The position numbers and the translations under genes are program-made. A stretch of 37,392 nucleotides of DNA from assembly GCA_009777935.1 (NCBI GenBank), contig WRKU01000014.1, positions 1 through 37,392 on the forward strand. Direction: 5' to 3'. Origin of the DNA: Coriobacteriia bacterium. Lineage in GTDB: Bacteria; Actinomycetota; Coriobacteriia; WRKU01. Under the pieces are notes generated by a model. It made no database searches. It saw only the letters and a list, made by a program, of their open reading frames with translations, and was not told where the DNA came from. Position 1 is the stretch's first letter. Each line of letters starts with the position of its first letter. Shown piece by piece: positions 1 through 37,392 of this stretch.

Positions 1-37
1 GGCATCTGCGACGCACGAGCACGAAATGAGGGCACAC

Positions 38-2177
38 ATGAACGATAACCACACCCTGCGGGGGGGGGGGGTCTCCACTTTCTGAGGTAGAGCCGCCCTC
101 TACTGATGCCACTACCGGCAGCGTTACCGGCACTGATGTGCCAAAAAGCCGCAAGCGTCAAAACACCACCATAGCCATCATAATTGCCCTACTCCTTCTG
201 CTTCTGGGAGCATTTGCCTGGGGCACTATGCAGCGCGCCATCAATCAGTTTGCAAACCTCAACACACCACGCGCCGTCCTTCATGATGAATTCAGGCGTC
301 TTGATGCGGCCGAGTGGCAAAAGAGCGTATGGGTACAGAACTCAGGCAGCTCACCCTTTATTGCACGCATCTCAGCATCTGAATTCATGCAGTGGATTGA
401 AAGTGAAAACTGGGATAGAGGACGCAATATCATAGAAGGTATTCCTTTTGCTGACCCTATTCCGGCAGCTATAGAGACTACCTTAACTCCCACACTTGAT
501 TCAGGCACGTGGGGCGTAGATGGCACCCTTATCGATACCCAAACAGCGTGGTTTAACGTCACCGCCGACATGTGGTCGATAAGAGGCTTGACCGACCCGA
601 CGAGCCTTGCCAATGCAGCTCCTGCCAGAGGACACGCAGCAGATGGCACTCCTTTCAGCCAATACTGGGAGTGGGACTCAGATCACCTCACCTACGCTGA
701 GTGGACAGCACTTCCTCTCTCACAGCGCTCAAACAAGTGGGTACTCGCTGACGATGGCTTTTTCTACTACACCTCTGTTATCAGACCGGATGCCAATACA
801 CTCCCCCTCATGACAGGAGTCTCTGCTGCTTCAGGTTTTGATCCGCTCAAGCATGCGTTTTACTATGCTATCGATATCCAGATGGAGGTCGTCACCCAAG
901 ATGATGTGGGTGCCATGAAAGACGGCCTTGTACCCAGCAGTGGCACCGACGGCGTCCCTTTGCGTGCAGCATCAACACAGGGTAAGGCGATACTTGACAG
1001 TATTAACTGGACGGCACCCATTATCGGAGGCTTGAGCATCAACGGCATCGAAGGTCTCTCAATAACCGTCTCTCAAGGTGAAGTGATCACGCTTGAAGTA
1101 GATGCCGGAGACGACCCTAATCTGACCTACCTGTGGCAGACCACCAACTCACCTTGGAACGATGCTCCGGGCACTAACGATGAGGTCGAATACACCGTGG
1201 ACACCAACATCTCTGGCACCTACGAGTTTAGGGTGCTGGTCTCAAACTCAGGCAACGCACCGGTCGAAAACGACGGACACACGACGGCAAGCGACACGAT
1301 TACCATCACGGTGTTACTCGACCCACTGGCACCGCAGCCTGCCGTGGGCACAACCCCGGTACGCACCAACATACCGAACTCTAACGATCCCAGCTCACCT
1401 TATCGCGTACTCTTTGACGGCATCCCCTTCTGGCGCATTGCCAGCGCAACGCATGAGGGCAAGACCTACTACCTCATCGTGAGCCAGCACATTTACAGCA
1501 CTGGCACACAGTTTAATCCAGCCACCACCGATGGCAATTTCTGGCTCTCGCGCACTAGTGCACCCGGCACCAAATCCAGCCTGATGACGGCGATGGATAA
1601 CTGGTACAATTCTCGAGGTCCGCAGCTTAAGGAAGCTGCCGTGTTCCCTGCCTTTAGTGGCACGATTAACCAGACTACACCGACAAGCTCGACCTTTGGT
1701 ACTGAAGGCACCACGGGTATGACGACGCAGGCAAGTTGGATAGTGGGCAACAACTGGTTTACGGCTAACAGCAATCGCTACATCAACGGCCAGTCTCGTC
1801 CGAGCGCAATACCGGTAGGCACTGCGAGTGCTAACACTCAGCCTCTCACCGGCGGCGGTATCGTAGCCTTCCCCTTATCTGGTACTGAGATTCTGGCGTA
1901 CTTCCCTGATTCACAGGGAACTACTGACGCAACTCGCGTGTCAGCTATCACGAACGACCAGCGCCTTGGTCGTGCGGTCAGTGACCAGCATTGGTGGTCG
2001 CGCACACGGGGTAACGCCGCCACCGGTGCGGGCGGAGTAAACAACTGGGGCCACGCGCAATTCGGGTTCGGCACCCTCAACAACACCGGCGTCTGGAGCG
2101 CGGGTGCGGCCAGCTTAGTCGAGGTTACCAACACCACCATTTCCCTCCGTCCTGCCCTGTGGGTAGTCGCGCCGTAA
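38..2177 (+). CDS. Phase-variable surface protein, copy A (OFF: 12 G)
   Basis: ATG at 38 follows AGGG and opens a frame reading MNDNHTLRGGG, then stops at TGA 83-85. The long frame, which could nominally start at GTG 138, is open upstream through the whole poly-G tract, has no ribosome binding site at 138, and joins the ATG if the run is 11 G. The ON product would be 712 residues: a hydrophilic 35-residue leader ending in KSRKR, one hydrophobic segment (IAIIIALLLLLLGAFAW), a region with a TasA/camelysin-like pattern (WVQNSGSSPFIARI), an Ig-like domain at about 340-430 (LTYLWQTT, GTYEFRVLVSN), and a C-terminal domain of about 260 residues with the DUF6273 signature (WWSRTRG, LRPALWVVAP). There is no LPxTG-like sorting signal, so membrane anchoring or release is likely. 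The function is unknown; cell-surface exposure is inferred. The gene could be a fixed pseudogene or carry a G-count error, but the conserved design in copies B and C argues for phase variation. Confidence 0.8.
60..71 (+). repeat. Poly-G tract of 12, copy A
   Basis: Twelve consecutive G lie between codon 7 (CTG) plus one C and the sequence TCTCC. Eleven G would put the start codon in frame with the 679-codon open frame; 12 puts it in the frame that ends at TGA 83-85. Long G runs are classical slipped-strand mutation sites in other phase-variable genes. The exact count depends on sequencing accuracy. Confidence 0.9.
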
Positions 2178-3087: not shown

Positions 3088-3106
3088 CATAGTGAAGGGA
3101 GCTCTC

Positions 3107-3442
3107 ATGAGCACTAACTCGGCGATGTTATCAACAAAAGTTTCGCCTGAAATCCGTGAACGATTCGAAGAGCTTGCCGGCTCATATGGAACCTCCCCGG
3201 CAGCCGCTTTGCGCATGTTGACGTATGCCTTTGTCAAGGCTGAAGGGTTTCCTTATGCGATGAGTGGCCAAAAGGAGACTATAAGGGAGACGTCTGTTGT
3301 GCCGCTGGAAGCGAAAACCTTTTTACCTGCGCTTGAAAAAATGCAAGAATCTATGACAGGCCAAGCAGAAAAGGCAGGACTCGTAGGCGATGAAGACGTG
3401 ATGGCACTTGTGCGAGAGGTCCGCTACAAGGAGACTGCATAG
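3107..3442 (+). CDS. Putative antitoxin, RelB/DinJ-like
   Basis: A 111-residue protein from ATG 3107, preceded by AAGGGAG at 3095-3101; a GTG at 3092 lies before that ribosome binding site and is rejected. The N-terminus (MLSTKVSPEIRERFEELAGSYG, followed by SPAAALRMLTYAFV) has the strand plus two-helix pattern of RelB/DinJ-type ribbon-helix-helix antitoxins. The rest, about 60-111, is probably the flexible toxin-binding tail. Its stop codon overlaps the toxin start (TAGTG), which fixes the pairing. Expected role: bind the PIN toxin and repress the operon at the palindrome over the -10. The family assignment rests on the N-terminal pattern only. Confidence 0.7.
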   Translation: MSTNSAMLSTKVSPEIRERFEELAGSYGTSPAAALRMLTYAFVKAEGFPYAMSGQKETIRETSVVPLEAKTFLPALEKMQESMTGQAEKAGLVGDEDVMALVREVRYKETA

Positions 3443-3858
3443 TGCGCTGCCTCATAGACACCAATGTTTTGGTATCGGCTTTTATGTGGCCGCAAAGCAT
3501 TCCTGCAGAGGCGGTTAAGATTGCGAGTACGGCACCTTTTTCTGCTTATGTTAGTCCATATTCTCTGGCAGAACTTAGGGAAGTTATTGTGCGTAAATGG
3601 CCTGAGAACTTGAGCGATCTTGATGTCTTTATAGAAAGTATCCTGCTTCATATGGTGGTAACCACTCAAACCATCGATTACCTTACCGAACAGATGCCTT
3701 TGCGAGATGTGAACGATATGCCTATTCTGGCAGATGCATTGGGCGAAGGTGTCGATATCATTATTTCAGGGGATAAGGATTTCATCGAGGCAGGACTCTC
3801 TAAGCCGCAGGTTTTGACACCGGCTGAGTTTATCAAGCAGCATTTTTCAAATCCATAG
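3442..3858 (+). CDS. PIN-domain ribonuclease toxin
   Basis: A 138-residue PIN-domain protein of the 'putative toxin component, PIN family' type. Acidic residues expected to bind metal are visible: Asp6 in LIDTNVLVSAF, Glu44 in SLAELREV, Asp92 in RDVNDMPILADAL, and Asp111/Asp113 in IISGDKDF. The start is GTG 3442, which shares a base with the antitoxin stop TAG, indicating translational coupling. PIN toxins are Mg-dependent RNases whose activity is held in check by the cognate antitoxin. The module sits between two surface-protein copies and inside 17-bp direct repeats (2653 and 3874), so it may stabilise this variable region; that is inference. Confidence 0.85.
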   Translation: MRCLIDTNVLVSAFMWPQSIPAEAVKIASTAPFSAYVSPYSLAELREVIVRKWPENLSDLDVFIESILLHMVVTTQTIDYLTEQMPLRDVNDMPILADALGEGVDIIISGDKDFIEAGLSKPQVLTPAEFIKQHFSNP

Positions 3859-3998: not shown

Positions 3999-4094
3999 TT
4001 GCGAGGAGCTAGCAAAATTTGCTACACTGGAAACGATAGTTACAAGCTAATCAATATAACGAGACATGCGTTTTTTGCATGAAATGAGGGCAAA
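3999..4094 (+). promoter_or_regulatory. Promoter and leader of surface copy B
   Basis: TTGCGA (3999-4004), 18 bases, TACACT (4023-4028). The block from here to the start codon is strongly conserved in copy C (37246-37342), including ACTGGAAACGATAGTTAC just after the -10. A small hairpin, CATGC (4065-4069) with GCATG (4077-4081) around a GTTTTTT loop, precedes GAGGG, the ribosome binding site of ATG 4095. The leader is about 60 nt. Strong conservation in a non-coding stretch suggests shared expression control of the family. Confidence 0.7.
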
Positions 4095-6217
4095 ATGAGC
4101 ACAACTGAGAAAACCACACGGGGGGGGGGTCCCTACTTTCTGAGGTAGCGACTTCTGCTACCGACACCGACGCGCTTCGCAGTCGCAAGCGTCAAAACAC
4201 CACTATAGCCATCATAATCGCACTACTCTTGCTCCTTTTGGGAGCTTTTGCGTGGGGTACGATGCAGCGTGCCATCAATCAGTTTGCGAGCCTGAACACA
4301 CCACGCGCAGTACTTCACGACGAATTCAGACGTCTTGATGCGACTGAGTGGCAAAAGAGAGTATGGGTACAAAACTCAGGCAACTCACCCTTTATCGCAC
4401 GCATATCCGCATCTGAGTTTATGCAATGGATAGAAGCCGAAGACTGGAGTCGTGGTAGAAACATCATAGAGGGTATTCCCTTTGCGAGTCCTATCCCTGA
4501 AGCTATCGAGACGACACTTACTCCTACGCTTGATTCAGACACCTGGGGAGCCGATGGTACTCTTATTGATACGCAAACGGCGTGGTTTGATGTCACCGCC
4601 GACATGTGGTCTATCAGAGGCCTTACTGATGCGACCAGCCTTACCCAAGCAGCTCCTGCCCGAGGACACGCAGCTGATGGTACTCCTTTCAGCGAGTACT
4701 GGGACTGGGACTCAGATCACCTGACCTACACCGAATGGACCGCACTACCTCTTGCGCAGCGCTCAAACAAGTGGGTGTTAGCTGATGATGGCTTTTTCTA
4801 CTACACCTCTGTCATCAGACCTGACAGCAATACACTCCCCTTGATGACCGGCGTGAGCGCTGCCACCGGCTTCGATCCGCTTAAGCACGCTTTTTACTAT
4901 GCCATCGATATCCAGATGGAAGTGGTTACCCAAGATGATGTCAGCGCTATGAAAGACGGCCTTGTTCCCAGCAGTGGCACTGACGGTGTCCCTTTGCGCA
5001 CAGCATCAACGCAGGGTAAGGCGATACTTGATAGCATCACATGGAATACCCCCATCATTGGAGGACTCAATATCAATGGTGTCGAAGGTCTTGAGATAGC
5101 TGTGGTGCCAGGTACGCCAGTCACCCTTGAAGTCGATGCTGGTGGTGACCCTGATCTCACCTACCTGTGGCAGACCACCAACTCTCCATGGAATGACGCT
5201 CCGGGTACTAACGACGAAACAGAATACACGGTAGATACCAACATAGTAGGCACCTTCGAGTTTAGAGTGCTTGTCTCTAACAGTGGCAATACACCCGCAG
5301 AAGACGACGGACACACGACCGTCTCAGATACTATCACTGTAGAAGTAGAGCCATCACCCGTACCCACGCCTGTCACCCCGACGCGCCGTGACTTTGGTCC
5401 AGTTCAGTTTTTTAGAATCGCTGAGCAGACGATTGATGGTGTCACTTATGACTTGTTAGTAACACGCTATGTATACGGCTCCAACCCGACGGCAGCCTGG
5501 GCTTATGTGCGGTTCAATGAAACGAGTCAGGGTAATTTCTGGCTTACCAACGCAGACGGTACCGCCAAATCTACCGTTATTGCTGGCATGGACAGCTGGT
5601 ACAACGGTCTTACGGGAGCTGGCCTTGATTCAGGCACCAACAATCTTAAGTCTCTTGCCGTACAGGCCGACTTCACCGGCAGCAATGCAGGTGCTGGTAG
5701 CACACGCACCTTTGGTACCGAAGGCTTGACGGGTCATCCCACTGTGACAGCACTTGCAGGCACCACGAACGCTGATGTGGCCGCAAACATTGCATTCATG
5801 CAAGATCCGGAAAACTATCCTGAGGCAATCTCGACGCCCTCGAGCAGAGCAGCAGCAAATCCCACTTCATCATCGCCGAGCACGGGTCAAGGTGTTGTCG
5901 CCTTCCCGCTCTCAGGCAAAGAGATACTGAGTTACTTTCCTAACATTGGGACAAATACGTATACGGGAAACGACATACTAGCACCACGAGCGTACGGCGT
6001 TGCTGCTAATCACGCAGGGTCGACGACAGCCCGCAGTTGGTGGTCCCGCTCGCGTAGTAACGAGGCTAATCGGGCGGGTTACGTGAACAGCAGCGGTAGT
6101 GTGCTCAGCTCTTGGGGTCGCTTGAACTACACTGGTGCGTGGGGTGCTCCCGCTGGCGGTACGATTACTGACAACGCTTACGCGCTTCGCCCCGCTCTTT
6201 GGGTGGTCGCGCCGTAA
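4095..6217 (+). CDS. Phase-variable surface protein, copy B (OFF: 10 G)
   Basis: ATG 4095 opens MSTTEKTTRGGG and, with 10 G, stops at TAG 4146-4148. The long frame is open from before the tract to 6217 and joins the ATG at 11 G, giving 707 residues. The only start candidate inside the long frame, TTG 4229, lies within the hydrophobic segment and would destroy it. Layout: leader ending RSRKR, hydrophobic segment (IAIIIALLLLLLGAFAW), TasA/camelysin-like region, Ig-like domain, and a C-terminal DUF6273-type domain from about 5370 on (WWSRSRS, YVNSSGSV, LRPALWVVAP). Up to about 5335 most residues match copy A; beyond that the two diverge, although the last residues are again identical. There is no sorting signal. 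The function is unknown; a variable surface antigen or binding protein is an inference. Confidence 0.8.
4120..4129 (+). repeat. Poly-G tract of 10, copy B
   Basis: Ten G between ACAC and TCCCTAC. Eleven G would connect the ATG at 4095 with the downstream frame. The tract sits at the same codon position relative to the downstream sequence (GGG, Ser, Pro/Leu, Leu, Ser, Glu, Val) as in copy A, although the codons upstream of it differ. Confidence 0.9.
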
Positions 6218-6230
6218 AGCGCATCTGCTT

Positions 6231-6962
6231 CTAAAGCATGCGGCAGGCTACGACGGCAGCACCGAAGCCGTTGTCGATGTTGACGACAGAGATGCCGCTA
6301 GCGCACGAATTGAGCATAGTCAGCAACGGCGCAAGGCCGTCGAAGTGCGCGCCGTAGCCGACGCTCGTTGGCACGGCGATGACCGGTACCTTAACGAGTC
6401 CGGCAACGAGCGAAGGGAGCGCACCCTCCATACCCGCAACCGCAATCACGACCTGCGCTTTTTGAAGCAGATCGGTGTGTTCAAGGACACGGTGTACGCC
6501 GGCGATGCCCACATCGTAGAGCCGCTCGACCTGCGCACCCATCGCTTCGGCACAGAGTGCGGCCTCTTCGGCGACCGGCATGTCGGCGGTGCCCCCGCTG
6601 GCGACTACAACGAGTCCTTGAGCCGCCTCGGCATCGGGCGTATCTGGCGCGGGCACCGTTCCCGATGCCACCGCGATGACGCGCGCCATTTCGTGATAGG
6701 TAGTCGTATGTGTGCTGTCGGCAAGTATGGCTTTTACCGCTTCAAACTGCGCAGGTGTGGCGCGCGTTGCCAGTATGGTGGGCGCGTATTCGGCGAGCTC
6801 ACGTGCAATGTGCGCGACCTGCTCAGGTGTTTTCCCCTGCGCAAAGATAACCTCGGCAAAGCCGCAACGCTGTGCACGATCGAGATCGAGCCGTGTGTGG
6901 ACGCAACCGTCACGGTCTGCAACGGGCAAGGTATGAGGGGTTGGTTTCTCGTGGTTAACCAT
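6231..6962 (-). CDS. larB: LarB, nickel-pincer cofactor biosynthesis carboxylase/hydrolase
   Basis: A 243-residue protein on the minus strand. The C-terminal half has the PurE/AIR-carboxylase-like fold pattern (VVVASGGTADMPVAEEAALCAEAMGA split across the nucleotide-binding loop, VAGMEGALPSLVAGL, PTSVGYGAHFDG), and the N-terminus (RCGFAEVIFAQGKTPEQ) is typical of LarB. Known LarB carboxylates nicotinate adenine dinucleotide and hydrolyses the phosphoanhydride, the first step towards the nickel-pincer nucleotide used by lactate racemase and related enzymes. LarC and LarE are not in the window. ATG 6962 is preceded on its strand by TACAAT (6974-6969) with only six bases between, which suggests a leaderless transcript. 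The upstream in-frame alternative at 7034 would reach into the serS leader and is rejected. The gene converges on surface copy B with a 13-base gap. Confidence 0.9.
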   Translation of the reverse strand: MVNHEKPTPHTLPVADRDGCVHTRLDLDRAQRCGFAEVIFAQGKTPEQVAHIARELAEYAPTILATRATPAQFEAVKAILADSTHTTTYHEMARVIAVASGTVPAPDTPDAEAAQGLVVVASGGTADMPVAEEAALCAEAMGAQVERLYDVGIAGVHRVLEHTDLLQKAQVVIAVAGMEGALPSLVAGLVKVPVIAVPTSVGYGAHFDGLAPLLTMLNSCASGISVVNIDNGFGAAVVACRML

Positions 6963-14041: not shown

Positions 14042-14917
14042 TTAATATCTTTCGCCGCCGGGACGGAATATAGCGGACAGCTGAGAGCGCAAAAAGTAGC
14101 GCGCATCCTGAAAATCATATTCGCAGGTAATAAGTGTAAGGAACTGTGCCGACGAGGCAAGATTTACCGGTACGGGAGGTGCAGCGCCGGCGATGACGCT
14201 TTGGTCGATTACCATATACTCGCGTGTTTGATTCGGCGTATAGATGAAGATATGCTGATGGAGATCGGCGAACTCGGGATCACGCCAGTAGGGTAGCTCG
14301 CCGAACATCGAGCGATCCTGCATGTGGTGGGCGTAGACACGTGCGTCAAGCTCCTTGAAGTCTGGACTAAGCCCTGCCTCAAGGAAAGGACATCCTCCTG
14401 CAGAGTACTCGCGTTGGAAGTTGTGCCTGAGGTAGAAATCGTTATCATCGGTCTGTGCAACAGGATAGTCAATACGAGTCCCGGGAATGAAAATCCATGC
14501 AATAATTTCGTCATTAATGAGTTGTAGCTCGGCAAAATCAATCCTACGTTCACGTGCTGCTTGGAGCATGGCCTCAGTCTGTCCGATACCATCTTCTGCG
14601 ATAGGCTGCTCGTCGGTGACTGCTTCCGCAAGATCGGTGTATCCCTTGTCGGCTCGGTAGTATTCCCACCAAATCGAAGTGATCTGGTAAAGGGCAAACA
14701 CCACAAGCGCGGCTCCGACGAACACCATGAACCAGCCCATAAATCCGCGTCGGCGCTTTGGTTTCTTTTCCTCCGGTGGCTGAGGTGGCAGGAGAGGTTG
14801 ATAGTGAGGTTGTTGCTGGTAGTAGGGCTGCTCGAATCCGGGTTGCTGAGGTGCACGGTAAGTCGGCTGCTGAGGCTGACCCGGATGGTAAAGCGGCGTG
14901 TTTGGTGGCGGGTACAT
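14042..14917 (-). CDS. Class B sortase, compact form
   Basis: A 291-residue type II membrane protein. A Pro/Gln/Tyr-rich cytoplasmic tail (1-50) and a basic patch KKPKRRR are followed by one membrane helix at about 59-80 and the sortase domain at 110-291. Class B hallmarks are visible: NDEIIAWIFIPGTRIDYPV, YLRHNF, YAHHM with catalytic His197, LITCEY with catalytic Cys265, and DARYFLR with Arg273. The His-to-Cys distance (68 residues) is about 25 shorter than in the well-known S. aureus SrtB (His130, Cys223), so the loop region between the last strands is reduced. ATG 14917 shares a base with the upstream thioesterase stop. No sorting-signal substrate gene was found in the window; the surface proteins here lack one. 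Confidence 0.85.
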   Translation of the reverse strand: MYPPPNTPLYHPGQPQQPTYRAPQQPGFEQPYYQQQPHYQPLLPPQPPEEKKPKRRRGFMGWFMVFVGAALVVFALYQITSIWWEYYRADKGYTDLAEAVTDEQPIAEDGIGQTEAMLQAARERRIDFAELQLINDEIIAWIFIPGTRIDYPVAQTDDNDFYLRHNFQREYSAGGCPFLEAGLSPDFKELDARVYAHHMQDRSMFGELPYWRDPEFADLHQHIFIYTPNQTREYMVIDQSVIAGAAPPVPVNLASSAQFLTLITCEYDFQDARYFLRSQLSAIFRPGGERY

Positions 14918-15435
14918 CAAGCATCACCGATTGTGAGGGTCGCTGGCATGGGGCGTGTATCTGTGCGCATGTCGGTTTCGTCGACCTCAAGGGTATCTGC
15001 ATCGACAATCTTATCAAGCGATGTTTTCAGATAGCGCCCTGTAGCCTCGACGGCAATACTGCCGTCTTCAAGCACGATTTCGCCCGCACCTTCGAATATA
15101 CGGGAGGTGTTGCGTGTAATGCGGCCACGCACGACAACTGGTTTATCGTAGGGAACCGGTTTACGATACTTGCAGGTCAGCTCGATGGTAACGGCCCAGA
15201 TATCGGGTTCATCCATCATAATGGCCCGCCCGACCGTCTCATCGAGCATGGCTGCCGCAATGCCGCCATGCACACGTCCGGGATAGCTCTGATGGGCATC
15301 GTGCACCTCAAAGATACCCACGAGCTCGCCTTGTTCACTCTCATAAAAACGTGCATGTAGACCGGAGTCGTTCTCCTCGCCGCACACAAAACACATGCGG
15401 GTGATATCCTGCGGCTGTGTAAGTTGATACTCCAT
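14917..15435 (-). CDS. PaaI/YbgC-like hotdog thioesterase
   Basis: A 172-residue single-domain hotdog protein. The segments CFVCGEEN (14-21), GRVHGGIAAAMLDETVGRA with the HGG loop and Asp/Glu of PaaI-type thioesterases, and RYLKTS near the end of the fold support the call; a charged tail of about 30 residues follows. Known relatives hydrolyse acyl-CoA thioesters; the substrate cannot be read from sequence. The Cys-x2-Cys near the N-terminus is common in this subgroup. ATG 15435 lies eight bases after TAGGAT on its strand, so it may be leaderless. It is translationally coupled to the sortase downstream, with no obvious functional link. Confidence 0.8.
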   Translation of the reverse strand: MEYQLTQPQDITRMCFVCGEENDSGLHARFYESEQGELVGIFEVHDAHQSYPGRVHGGIAAAMLDETVGRAIMMDEPDIWAVTIELTCKYRKPVPYDKPVVVRGRITRNTSRIFEGAGEIVLEDGSIAVEATGRYLKTSLDKIVDADTLEVDETDMRTDTRPMPATLTIGDA

Positions 15436-35664: not shown

Positions 35665-37242
35665 ATGAGTGAGCCGGCTATCAAGCGGGCGCTGGTTTCC
35701 GTGACCGATAAAACCGGCGTGGTCGAGTTCTGTCGTGCGTTATCTGCTGAGTTCGGCGTGGAGATTGTCAGTACCGGTGGCACGGCGTCGGCGCTGGAGG
35801 CGGGTGGCGTGCCGGTACGTGCTATCGATGACCTGACCGGCTTTCCCGAGATGATGGACGGGCGCGTCAAGACGCTTCACCCGCGCGTGCACGGCGGGTT
35901 GCTTGCACGGCGTGGTGACGAAGCGCATATGGCCGCTGCGGCAGAGCACGGCATCGGTATGATCGACCTTGTGTGCGTGAACCTCTATGCGTTTGAGGAA
36001 ACGGTGGCACGTGAGGACGTGACCGAGGAAGACGCCATCGAGAACATCGACATCGGTGGACCGTCGATGCTACGTAGCGCAGCGAAAAACTTCGAGAGCG
36101 TCACGGTAGTAACACGCCCGGAGCAATACGCGGAAGTGCTCGCCGAGATGCGCATGAACGATGGCGCAACGACACGTGCAACACGCCGGACGTATGCGAC
36201 GGAGGTTTTTGCGGTCACCGCTGCATACGACGGAGCAATCGCTGAATACCTGAGCGACGGTGATATCAAGCAGGTAGCGTTGCAGAAAGTACAAGATTTG
36301 CGCTACGGCGAAAACCCCCACCAGCGCGCGGCCTTCTACCGCCTTGGGAGTGCCGCCGATGTGGTGGGTACTCTCGCCGGAGCCGAGCAGCTGCAGGGCA
36401 AAGAACTTTCCTACAACAATATCCTCGATACCGATGCCGCATGGAGTGCGGTACGCGAGTTTCTCGCGCCGACCTGTGCCATTATCAAGCATACTAACCC
36501 GTGTGGCCTCGCGAGTCGCGACGACGCGAACGGTGGCATCGCCGAAGCATATCGTGTGGCGCACGAGGTCGATTCTATCAGCGCGTTCGGCGGGGTAATG
36601 GCGTTCAACCGCCCCGTTACCGCTGAGCTTGTCGAGGCCATCTTTGCGAACAAGCAGTTTGTCGAGGCTATCATCGCACCTGATGTCGATGCGGCGGCAC
36701 GCGAGTTGCTCACCGAAAAGCCGAACCTGCGTGTGCTTTGCACGGGGGCGGTGCTTTCGGCAGGCGGCGGTTACGAGATGCGCTCGGTTGAAGGAGGCGT
36801 GCTCGTGCAACAGGCCGATGCAGTCGCCACCGATGAAGGTAGCCCCGAGGACCCGGCCGGATTTACCGTGCCGACGAAACGCGCACCGACGCCTGAGGAA
36901 ATGGAACAGTTGCTCTTTGCGTGGCGCGTAGTCAAGAGCGTCAAGAGTAACGCGATTGTGCTTGTGAAAGACTTCTGTACGGTCGGCGTCGGTGCAGGAC
37001 AGATGAATCGCGTCAACAGTGCGCGTATCGCCGTTGAGCAGGCCGGTGCTGCCGCTGCTGATAGTGTCTGTGCGAGCGACGCATTCATGCCGTTTCCCGA
37101 CTCACTTGAGGTGGTGGCAGAGGCCGGTGCCACGGCGGTTATCCAGCCCGGCGGCTCAATCCGCGACGACGAAGTCATTGCCCGTGCCGATGAACTTGGC
37201 GTTGCGATGGTCTTCACCGGACACCGGCACTTCCGGCATTAG
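35665..37242 (+). CDS. purH: Bifunctional AICAR formyltransferase / IMP cyclohydrolase
   Basis: A 525-residue enzyme for the last two steps to IMP. The N-terminal cyclohydrolase part (about 1-200) shows ALVSVTDKTG, STGGTASALE and GRVKTLHPRVHGGLL; the C-terminal transformylase shows LRYGENPHQRAAFY, ELSYNNILD, KHTNPCG, SISAFGG and the closing SDAFMPFPD and GHRHFRH. All are intact. ATG 35665 is preceded by GAGAGAGG. An 87-base gap separates it from the lipoprotein gene. Immediately after its stop comes the promoter of surface copy C, with no terminator between. Confidence 0.97.
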   Translation: MSEPAIKRALVSVTDKTGVVEFCRALSAEFGVEIVSTGGTASALEAGGVPVRAIDDLTGFPEMMDGRVKTLHPRVHGGLLARRGDEAHMAAAAEHGIGMIDLVCVNLYAFEETVAREDVTEEDAIENIDIGGPSMLRSAAKNFESVTVVTRPEQYAEVLAEMRMNDGATTRATRRTYATEVFAVTAAYDGAIAEYLSDGDIKQVALQKVQDLRYGENPHQRAAFYRLGSAADVVGTLAGAEQLQGKELSYNNILDTDAAWSAVREFLAPTCAIIKHTNPCGLASRDDANGGIAEAYRVAHEVDSISAFGGVMAFNRPVTAELVEAIFANKQFVEAIIAPDVDAAARELLTEKPNLRVLCTGAVLSAGGGYEMRSVEGGVLVQQADAVATDEGSPEDPAGFTVPTKRAPTPEEMEQLLFAWRVVKSVKSNAIVLVKDFCTVGVGAGQMNRVNSARIAVEQAGAAAADSVCASDAFMPFPDSLEVVAEAGATAVIQPGGSIRDDEVIARADELGVAMVFTGHRHFRH

Positions 37243-37245
37243 TGT

Positions 37246-37342
37246 TTGCCGAGGGCTGGCGAAATTTGGTAGACTGGAAACGATAGTTACTAAGTAGTCA
37301 ACACGACGGACTATGCGTTTTTTGCATGAAATGAGGGCACAC
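37246..37342 (+). promoter_or_regulatory. Promoter and leader of surface copy C
   Basis: TTGCCG (37246-37251), 18 bases, TAGACT (37270-37275), then a leader nearly identical to that of copy B, including ACTGGAAACGATAGTTAC and the hairpin TATGC (37312-37316) / GCATG (37324-37328) with a GTTTTTT loop. The -35 begins four bases after the purH stop. Confidence 0.65.
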
Positions 37343-37392
37343 ATGAACGATAACCACACCCTGCGGGGGGGGGGGGGCTCCACTTTTTGGGT
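37343..37392 (+). CDS. Phase-variable surface protein, copy C (5' end only, 13 G)
   Basis: ATG 37343 opens the same first codons as copy A (MNDNHTLR), preceded by the same GAAATGAGGG site. The G run is 13. Comparing the sequence after the run with copy A (CTCCACTTT in both), the frame equivalent to the long frame of copy A would be reached with 12 G, so this copy also appears one G away from ON. The gene leaves the window 15 bases after the tract and its C-terminal domain is unseen. The last bases (TTTTTGGGT) differ from the CTGAGGTAG of copies A and B; this may be real or poor sequence at a contig end. Confidence 0.6.
   Translation, partial: MNDNHTLRGGGGSTFW
37365..37377 (+). repeat. Poly-G tract of 13, copy C
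   Basis: Thirteen G between CTGC and CTCCACTT. The tract lies at the same place after the start codon as in copy A, and the 43 bases before it, from GAAATGAGGG on, are identical in the two copies. Confidence 0.85.

Follow-up and report, generated by a model that had tools for sequence, protein, structure and literature searches.

Poly-G tracts and DGR-type variable repeats in one family of predicted surface-protein genes of a Coriobacteriia genome

Phase variation by homopolymer tracts occurs in the actinobacterium Gardnerella (PMC11287997). The loci described here are like these poly-G/C contingency loci in that a long G run is found near the starts of (in our case predicted) surface-protein genes, that there are many loci in one genome, and that a change in run length would shift the reading frame. 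They are unlike them in forming one paralogous family, in being nearly all one G away from the readable length (ON), and in having DGR-type hypervariable C-termini. DGRs with several targets are also known already (PMC10743442, PMC10907252, PMC6642488). Up to eight similar targets are given for Treponema denticola and Stenotrophomonas (PMC10743442), and nine DGR loci with 15 targets, 21 repeats and activity in trans for Thiohalocapsa PB-PSB1 (PMC10907252). Several C-terminal repeats, variation at codon positions 1 and 2, and targets far from the reverse transcriptase are shared with these multi-target cellular DGRs, whereas eleven repeats with one reverse transcriptase, a template that was not found, poly-G gated targets and a small genome set the present case apart.

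The predicted proteins have described counterparts as well. In the Faecalibacterium prophages, the variable regions of phage DGR targets map to a DUF6273 C-terminus (PMC11792537), and the tentaclins are DGR targets with DUF6273, which resembles a C-type lectin (PMC10743442). Shared with these targets are a C-terminal variable region in DUF6273 and, in some, Ig-like domains; unlike the phage targets, the present family is bacterial, has a helix and a BsaA-like domain at its N-terminus, and matches DUF6273 only weakly. Expression of BsaA is heterogeneous (PMC7395162). As with the BsaA/TasA-type SipW-dependent matrix proteins, the N-domain resembles TIGR04090 and the genome encodes a SipW-type peptidase; in contrast to them, the family scores below the cut-off, its members are much longer and have an extra C-terminal domain, and there are dozens of copies, gated by a tract and not by a two-component system. 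Poly-G phase variation and multi-target DGRs are each known, and judging from the sequence they appear to be combined here. A literature search, which had most subscription papers outside its scope, did not find poly-G gating of DGR targets (including in the available parts of PMC10053308 and PMC11792537); the Gracilibacterium paper PMC6851277 had no DGR text.

Three poly-G tracts and the family they belong to

The stretch analysed (the window, 37,392 nucleotides) is the complete contig C14 of genome G000, an assembly of 1,106,534 bases in 21 contigs that is 86% complete. The window contains 11 overlapping matches to G9, where 100 shuffles gave 0.11 on average. The initial annotation had described three tracts of 12, 10 and 13 Gs, and these are found as G12 at 60-71 (copy A), G10 at 4120-4129 (copy B) and G13 at 37365-37377 (copy C), all on the plus strand. 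It had also taken copy C for a third poly-G gated gene start after purH, which agrees with our analysis: purH (35665-37242, plus strand; Pfam AICARFT/IMPCHase, E 3.8e-113) lies 5' of copy C as context outside the family, and the ATG of copy C at 37343-37345 opens the peptide MNDNHTLR, with glycines after it. The gene body is beyond the contig end, and several other contigs likewise finish in a leader and tract without a gene body. A 49-nt block with an SD-like GAGG, the ATG and the codons up to the tract (37328-37376, plus strand) is identical to window positions 23-71, so that the reported sharing between contig end and start exists, although its coordinates at the end (37329-37377) were off by one.

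The region upstream of the start was described less accurately. For the supposed leader hairpin, folding is not better than in shuffled sequences (z 0.29 for copy C, 0.09 for copy B), a strict sigma-70 scan detects no promoter at copy C, and the leader is not common to all three copies, since copy A has another leader class upstream, unlike B and C. The 18-nt leader element of copy C (37273-37290, plus strand) has exact matches in the genome only at 4026 (copy B, 4026-4043, plus strand) and at C17:3163. In copy A the ATG at 38 runs to the tract end at 71, and the long frame 3' of the tract (72-2177, plus strand) joins this ATG only at G11. In copy B the segment from the ATG at 4095 to the tract end at 4129 (plus strand) is followed by a long frame at 4130-6217 (plus strand), which encodes a transmembrane/signal helix, a BsaA-like N-domain, a linker and a DUF6273-like C-terminus. 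A weakly RelB-like gene and a PIN-domain gene (3092-3858) adjoin copy B and are likely a toxin-antitoxin pair. On the minus strand at 14042-14920 there is a gene resembling class B sortases (TIGR03064, 134.8 bits, below the cut-off of 153.75).

Across the family the predicted proteins have the same order of parts, a transmembrane or signal helix, a BsaA/SipW-type N-domain, a linker, and a DUF6273-like C-terminus with the variable repeat. All eight proteins scanned match TIGR04090 (BsaA, SipW-dependent matrix protein) with E-values from 3.4e-5 to 8.5e-8 (copy A 2.6e-6), with scores of 23.7 to 32.2 bits that are all under the curated cut-off of 60 bits; by these matches the family members are only distant BsaA relatives and fall outside TIGR04090. 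The SipW-type signal peptidase (C8:46066-46530, 78.5 bits) is above its cut-off of 51.85. DUF6273 (PF19789) gives weak matches in 13 of 19 C-termini (E up to 0.1, best 2.7e-5), copy B scoring 15.1 bits against a cut-off of 23.5, and a PDB profile search with the 19 C-termini found no match. AlphaFold models from two-row alignments had a mean pLDDT of 29.5 (C-terminal) and 38.8 (N-terminal), which made them unusable for fold searches. This predicted build is in keeping with adhesins or surface fibres whose binding tip the retroelement would vary, and whose translation would wait for slippage to the right tract length.

The annotation had expected more copies elsewhere in the genome, and rightly so: there are 42 G/C runs of at least 8, and the N-terminal domain is encoded at no fewer than 23 loci. 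Seventeen of these have a coding tract, placed a few codons past the ATG, and six do not (C1:2, C6:3, C8:27112, C8:39950, C12:29577 and C13:21353); a further N-domain fragment is found at C8:41320. Copy C probably opens one member of this family of at least 23 genes, whose products would be exported surface proteins, with poly-G tracts acting as switches and a DGR as the source of their diversity. Some match to the family is found in 41 of 396 genomes of the class, chiefly to the middle or C-terminal part; among the same 396 genomes the N-terminal part is matched, the own genome aside, only by G001, G008 and weakly G254. In viral contigs neither poly-G starts nor the C-terminal family were found.

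Variable repeats and a DGR-type reverse transcriptase

Repeats with an adenine-specific DGR signature close eleven loci (C1:2, where the contig end cuts inside a similar repeat, is uncounted). An inferred 147-nt template fits all 11 places, with at least 87 of the 97 non-A positions matching and 15-27 of the 50 A's kept; the repeat of copy B (6035-6181, plus strand) matches 87 of 97 and keeps 22 of 50. In the repeat column table (10 loci, without C18:14752) most hypervariable codons read NNC or NNT, with a fixed third base. For the codon comparison, nine of the eleven repeat loci were used, leaving aside C17:1281 (N-domain off the contig) and C18:14752 (altered 3' end). In these nine genes, diversity at codon positions 1, 2 and 3 is.321,.286 and.223 in the repeat,.158,.110 and.444 in the N-domain, and.242,.245 and.521 in between. 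If only codons with at least four residue types are considered, 11 of 20 in the repeat have an unchanging third base, as do one of five in the N-domain and one of 22 between them. Among invariant columns at positions 1 and 2, A makes up 1/44 in the repeat, 72/293 in the N-domain and 52/214 between (repeat against the rest, Fisher P 2e-4; elsewhere in the genes about 25% A). By this comparison the repeats vary almost wholly at the adenines of the inferred template, as is the case in a DGR. Seven of the 17 tract genes, copy A included, have no clear copy of this repeat type. Copy A (window 1-2177), C17:5436 and C13:21368 have another common C-terminal type in which third positions vary too, and which has arisen either by ordinary divergence or from a different repeat of greater age.

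A reverse transcriptase of 381 aa is encoded in an intact frame on contig C10 (L140:2392-3537, minus strand). Its best PDB match is 8ub7 (E 3.6e-23), from a series which we take to be the Bordetella phage BPP-1 DGR enzyme, and it matches the PHROG reverse transcriptase at 1.2e-88. It has the motif LGNQSSQW; an LGNxxSQ-like motif is a DGR hallmark. An Avd-like frame lies 5' of it (PHROG Avd, E 1.4e-11), whose protein scores 16.6 bits against the NCBIfam Avd cut-off of 80 and has no Pfam match. Among the first 23 of 80 IMG/VR relatives, which were examined, 17 stand beside an adenine-specific template/variable pair. On these matches, the predicted enzyme is of DGR type. Assignment as a defence or retron reverse transcriptase was dropped, with NCBIfam matches below the cut-off and broad PADLOC matches, as against the DGR match.

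A template repeat was not found in the 86%-complete assembly by BLAST or pattern searches, nor by script in selected stretches of it, and within 12 kb around the reverse transcriptase there is no template/variable pair. Because of this, our claim is limited to DGR-type repeats and a reverse transcriptase, and does not extend to a complete DGR cassette. The repeats also differ by synonymous T/C changes, so their overwriting has not been recent everywhere, and this synonymous drift, together with the missing template, speaks against frequent current overwriting. It is conceivable, if rather unlikely, that the poly-G phase variation is real while the repeats are the relic of an old DGR, now changing by drift and recombination with the retroelement inactive. 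Such a relic would agree with both of these observations, and also with the distribution of the reverse transcriptase, which has no match in the order's 13 other genomes (own genome only, 1/14). Against it stand the completeness of the assembly, which is only 86%, the intact reverse transcriptase frame next to an Avd-like gene, and the third bases of the hypervariable codons, which are still fixed.

The proposed poly-G gate and the contig ends

Twenty of the runs are coding tracts with a recognisable start, and 19 were classified, leaving out C4:57 with its error-like downstream sequence; the 20 do not include C1:134603, C15:20, C18:16819 and C4:26809, at which no start belonging to the run itself can be recognised. 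With one consensus length per locus, 16 of the 19 are one G above ON, two are ON and one is below. The +1 class consists of thirteen G12 tracts plus three G13 tracts whose junction is altered (C8:53107, copy C and C17:18103); the ON tracts are G11 at C18:2407 and at C7:37 (at a contig end), and the only one that is a base short is the G10 of copy B. If the three classes were equiprobable, at least 16 of 19 in one class would have P 2e-5, a rough guide as the copies are related. The earlier reading of copy C as one G from ON stands, through alignment of its junction with C8:53107: G13 is followed by CTCCACTTTTTGGG in copy C and by CTCCACTTTTTGAG at C8:53107. In both, the T next to the tract is replaced by G, and one G fewer is required for the long frame. 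Copy C was put in the +1 class by this alignment; the automated frame call differed, with only five codons remaining.

Homopolymer run length sets the reading frame at these loci, as it does at contingency loci, and C18:118-2472 is an example of an open ON frame, with 785 residues from stop to stop and the ATG included. The two wrong frames are closed 5 and 3 codons past the tract in 17 of 17 tract genes, and these off-frame stops are present whether the junction is of type SPLSEVEP or PSQNSVEP. Free and unbiased slippage on its own would not give so strong an excess of G12. The pile-up one G from ON could come from a preference for one tract length, from gene conversion, or from a consensus drawn over a mixed population. 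Alternatively, the uniform G12 at one base off the long frame could be the normal state of a programmed frameshift site, with ribosomal or transcriptional slippage yielding the product. This is improbable, as G11 is in frame at C18:2407 and C7:37, copy B has G10, and both wrong frames are shut within five codons.

Runs are also found outside coding frames. Seven lie on promoter-side flanks (C9:48280, C9:109, C4:218, C19:62, C20:14096, C2:118021 and C9:50703), with lengths, sorted by size, of 9, 9, 10, 13, 13, 13 and 13. At C9:48280 the upstream tract is followed by a coding tract at C9:48408, giving two tracts for one gene. A second poly-G tract 5' of some promoters may tune transcription. At C4:26809-26820 a promoter-side flank is fused straight to a coding flank at G12, which may mean that two tracts recombined, or that the sequence is chimeric. 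In G008, of the same order, three distant BsaA-like relatives (L104, L105 and L112) have a conserved G11-G12 run 5' of the start and outside the frame, and because these runs are upstream and non-coding, the upstream tract may predate the coding tract. Outside the family, a G12 at C2:6377-6388 (L057; poly-C on the coding strand) lies between the minus-strand frames 5269-6366 and 6366-6707, which look like two parts of a single membrane-protein gene interrupted by the run, perhaps a further switch.

The annotation had taken the contig end for a break of the assembly at a multi-copy family. This is borne out genome-wide, with 22 of 42 contig ends no more than 250 nt from a run where 0.4 would be expected under random placement. 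Since this multi-copy poly-G family is where the assembly breaks, much of the repertoire will go unseen in short-read genomes from such lineages. The possibility that the end of this contig is an artefactual copy of its start was also raised. It is not simply a repeat of the start, because the leader classes differ (La at copy C, Lc at copy A); a chimeric end is possible all the same, because, of the seven La leaders, that of copy C alone is attached to start type N1.

This lone combination, the clustering of runs at contig ends, and the artefact-like, low-complexity sequence of some of them (C2:7, C8:22 and C12:45984) would also be seen if the contig-end G runs, copy C included, were sequencing or assembly errors with unreliable tract lengths. 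There is little probability of this either. Eleven runs are more than 250 nt from any contig end, and eight of these are coding tracts with a recognisable start (six one too long, one ON, one short); the altered junction of copy C is found again at C8:53107; and the off-frame stops are kept in every one of the tract genes. The mosaic make-up of leaders and starts shows that copies do recombine with one another. Positive selection with gene conversion and no retroelement, for which this recombination could be cited, is a very remote explanation of the C-terminal variability in a genome that encodes a DGR-type reverse transcriptase, since fixed third bases together with the loss of invariant A indicate adenine-directed copying and would not come from selection at the protein level or gene conversion alone.

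A proposed way of making and showing variants

The proposed mechanism has two parts. Slipped-strand mispairing would alter the tract length and so switch translation on or off, and the retroelement would copy a template, mutate its adenines and overwrite the repeats in trans. Silent copies could then vary without cost, and slippage would later bring one of them, or a few, into view as binding tips on surface fibres. We therefore put forward, as a tentative reading with slightly less than even chances, a coat variation in two stages, in which one retroelement mutates the binding tips of a mostly silent library of fibre-like surface proteins and, with the poly-G tracts standing one base off ON, single slippages display one tip or a few per cell.

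If this two-stage reading is true, the making and the showing of variants are uncoupled, and new variants arise in unexpressed genes. Hypermutation by DGRs and phase variation are normally studied apart, and here the marks of both are found in the same genes of a small genome. If the system is active, it would be a natural example of a silent repertoire that mutates and is displayed through a stochastic switch, and it would bear on the number of targets that one bacterial DGR can serve.
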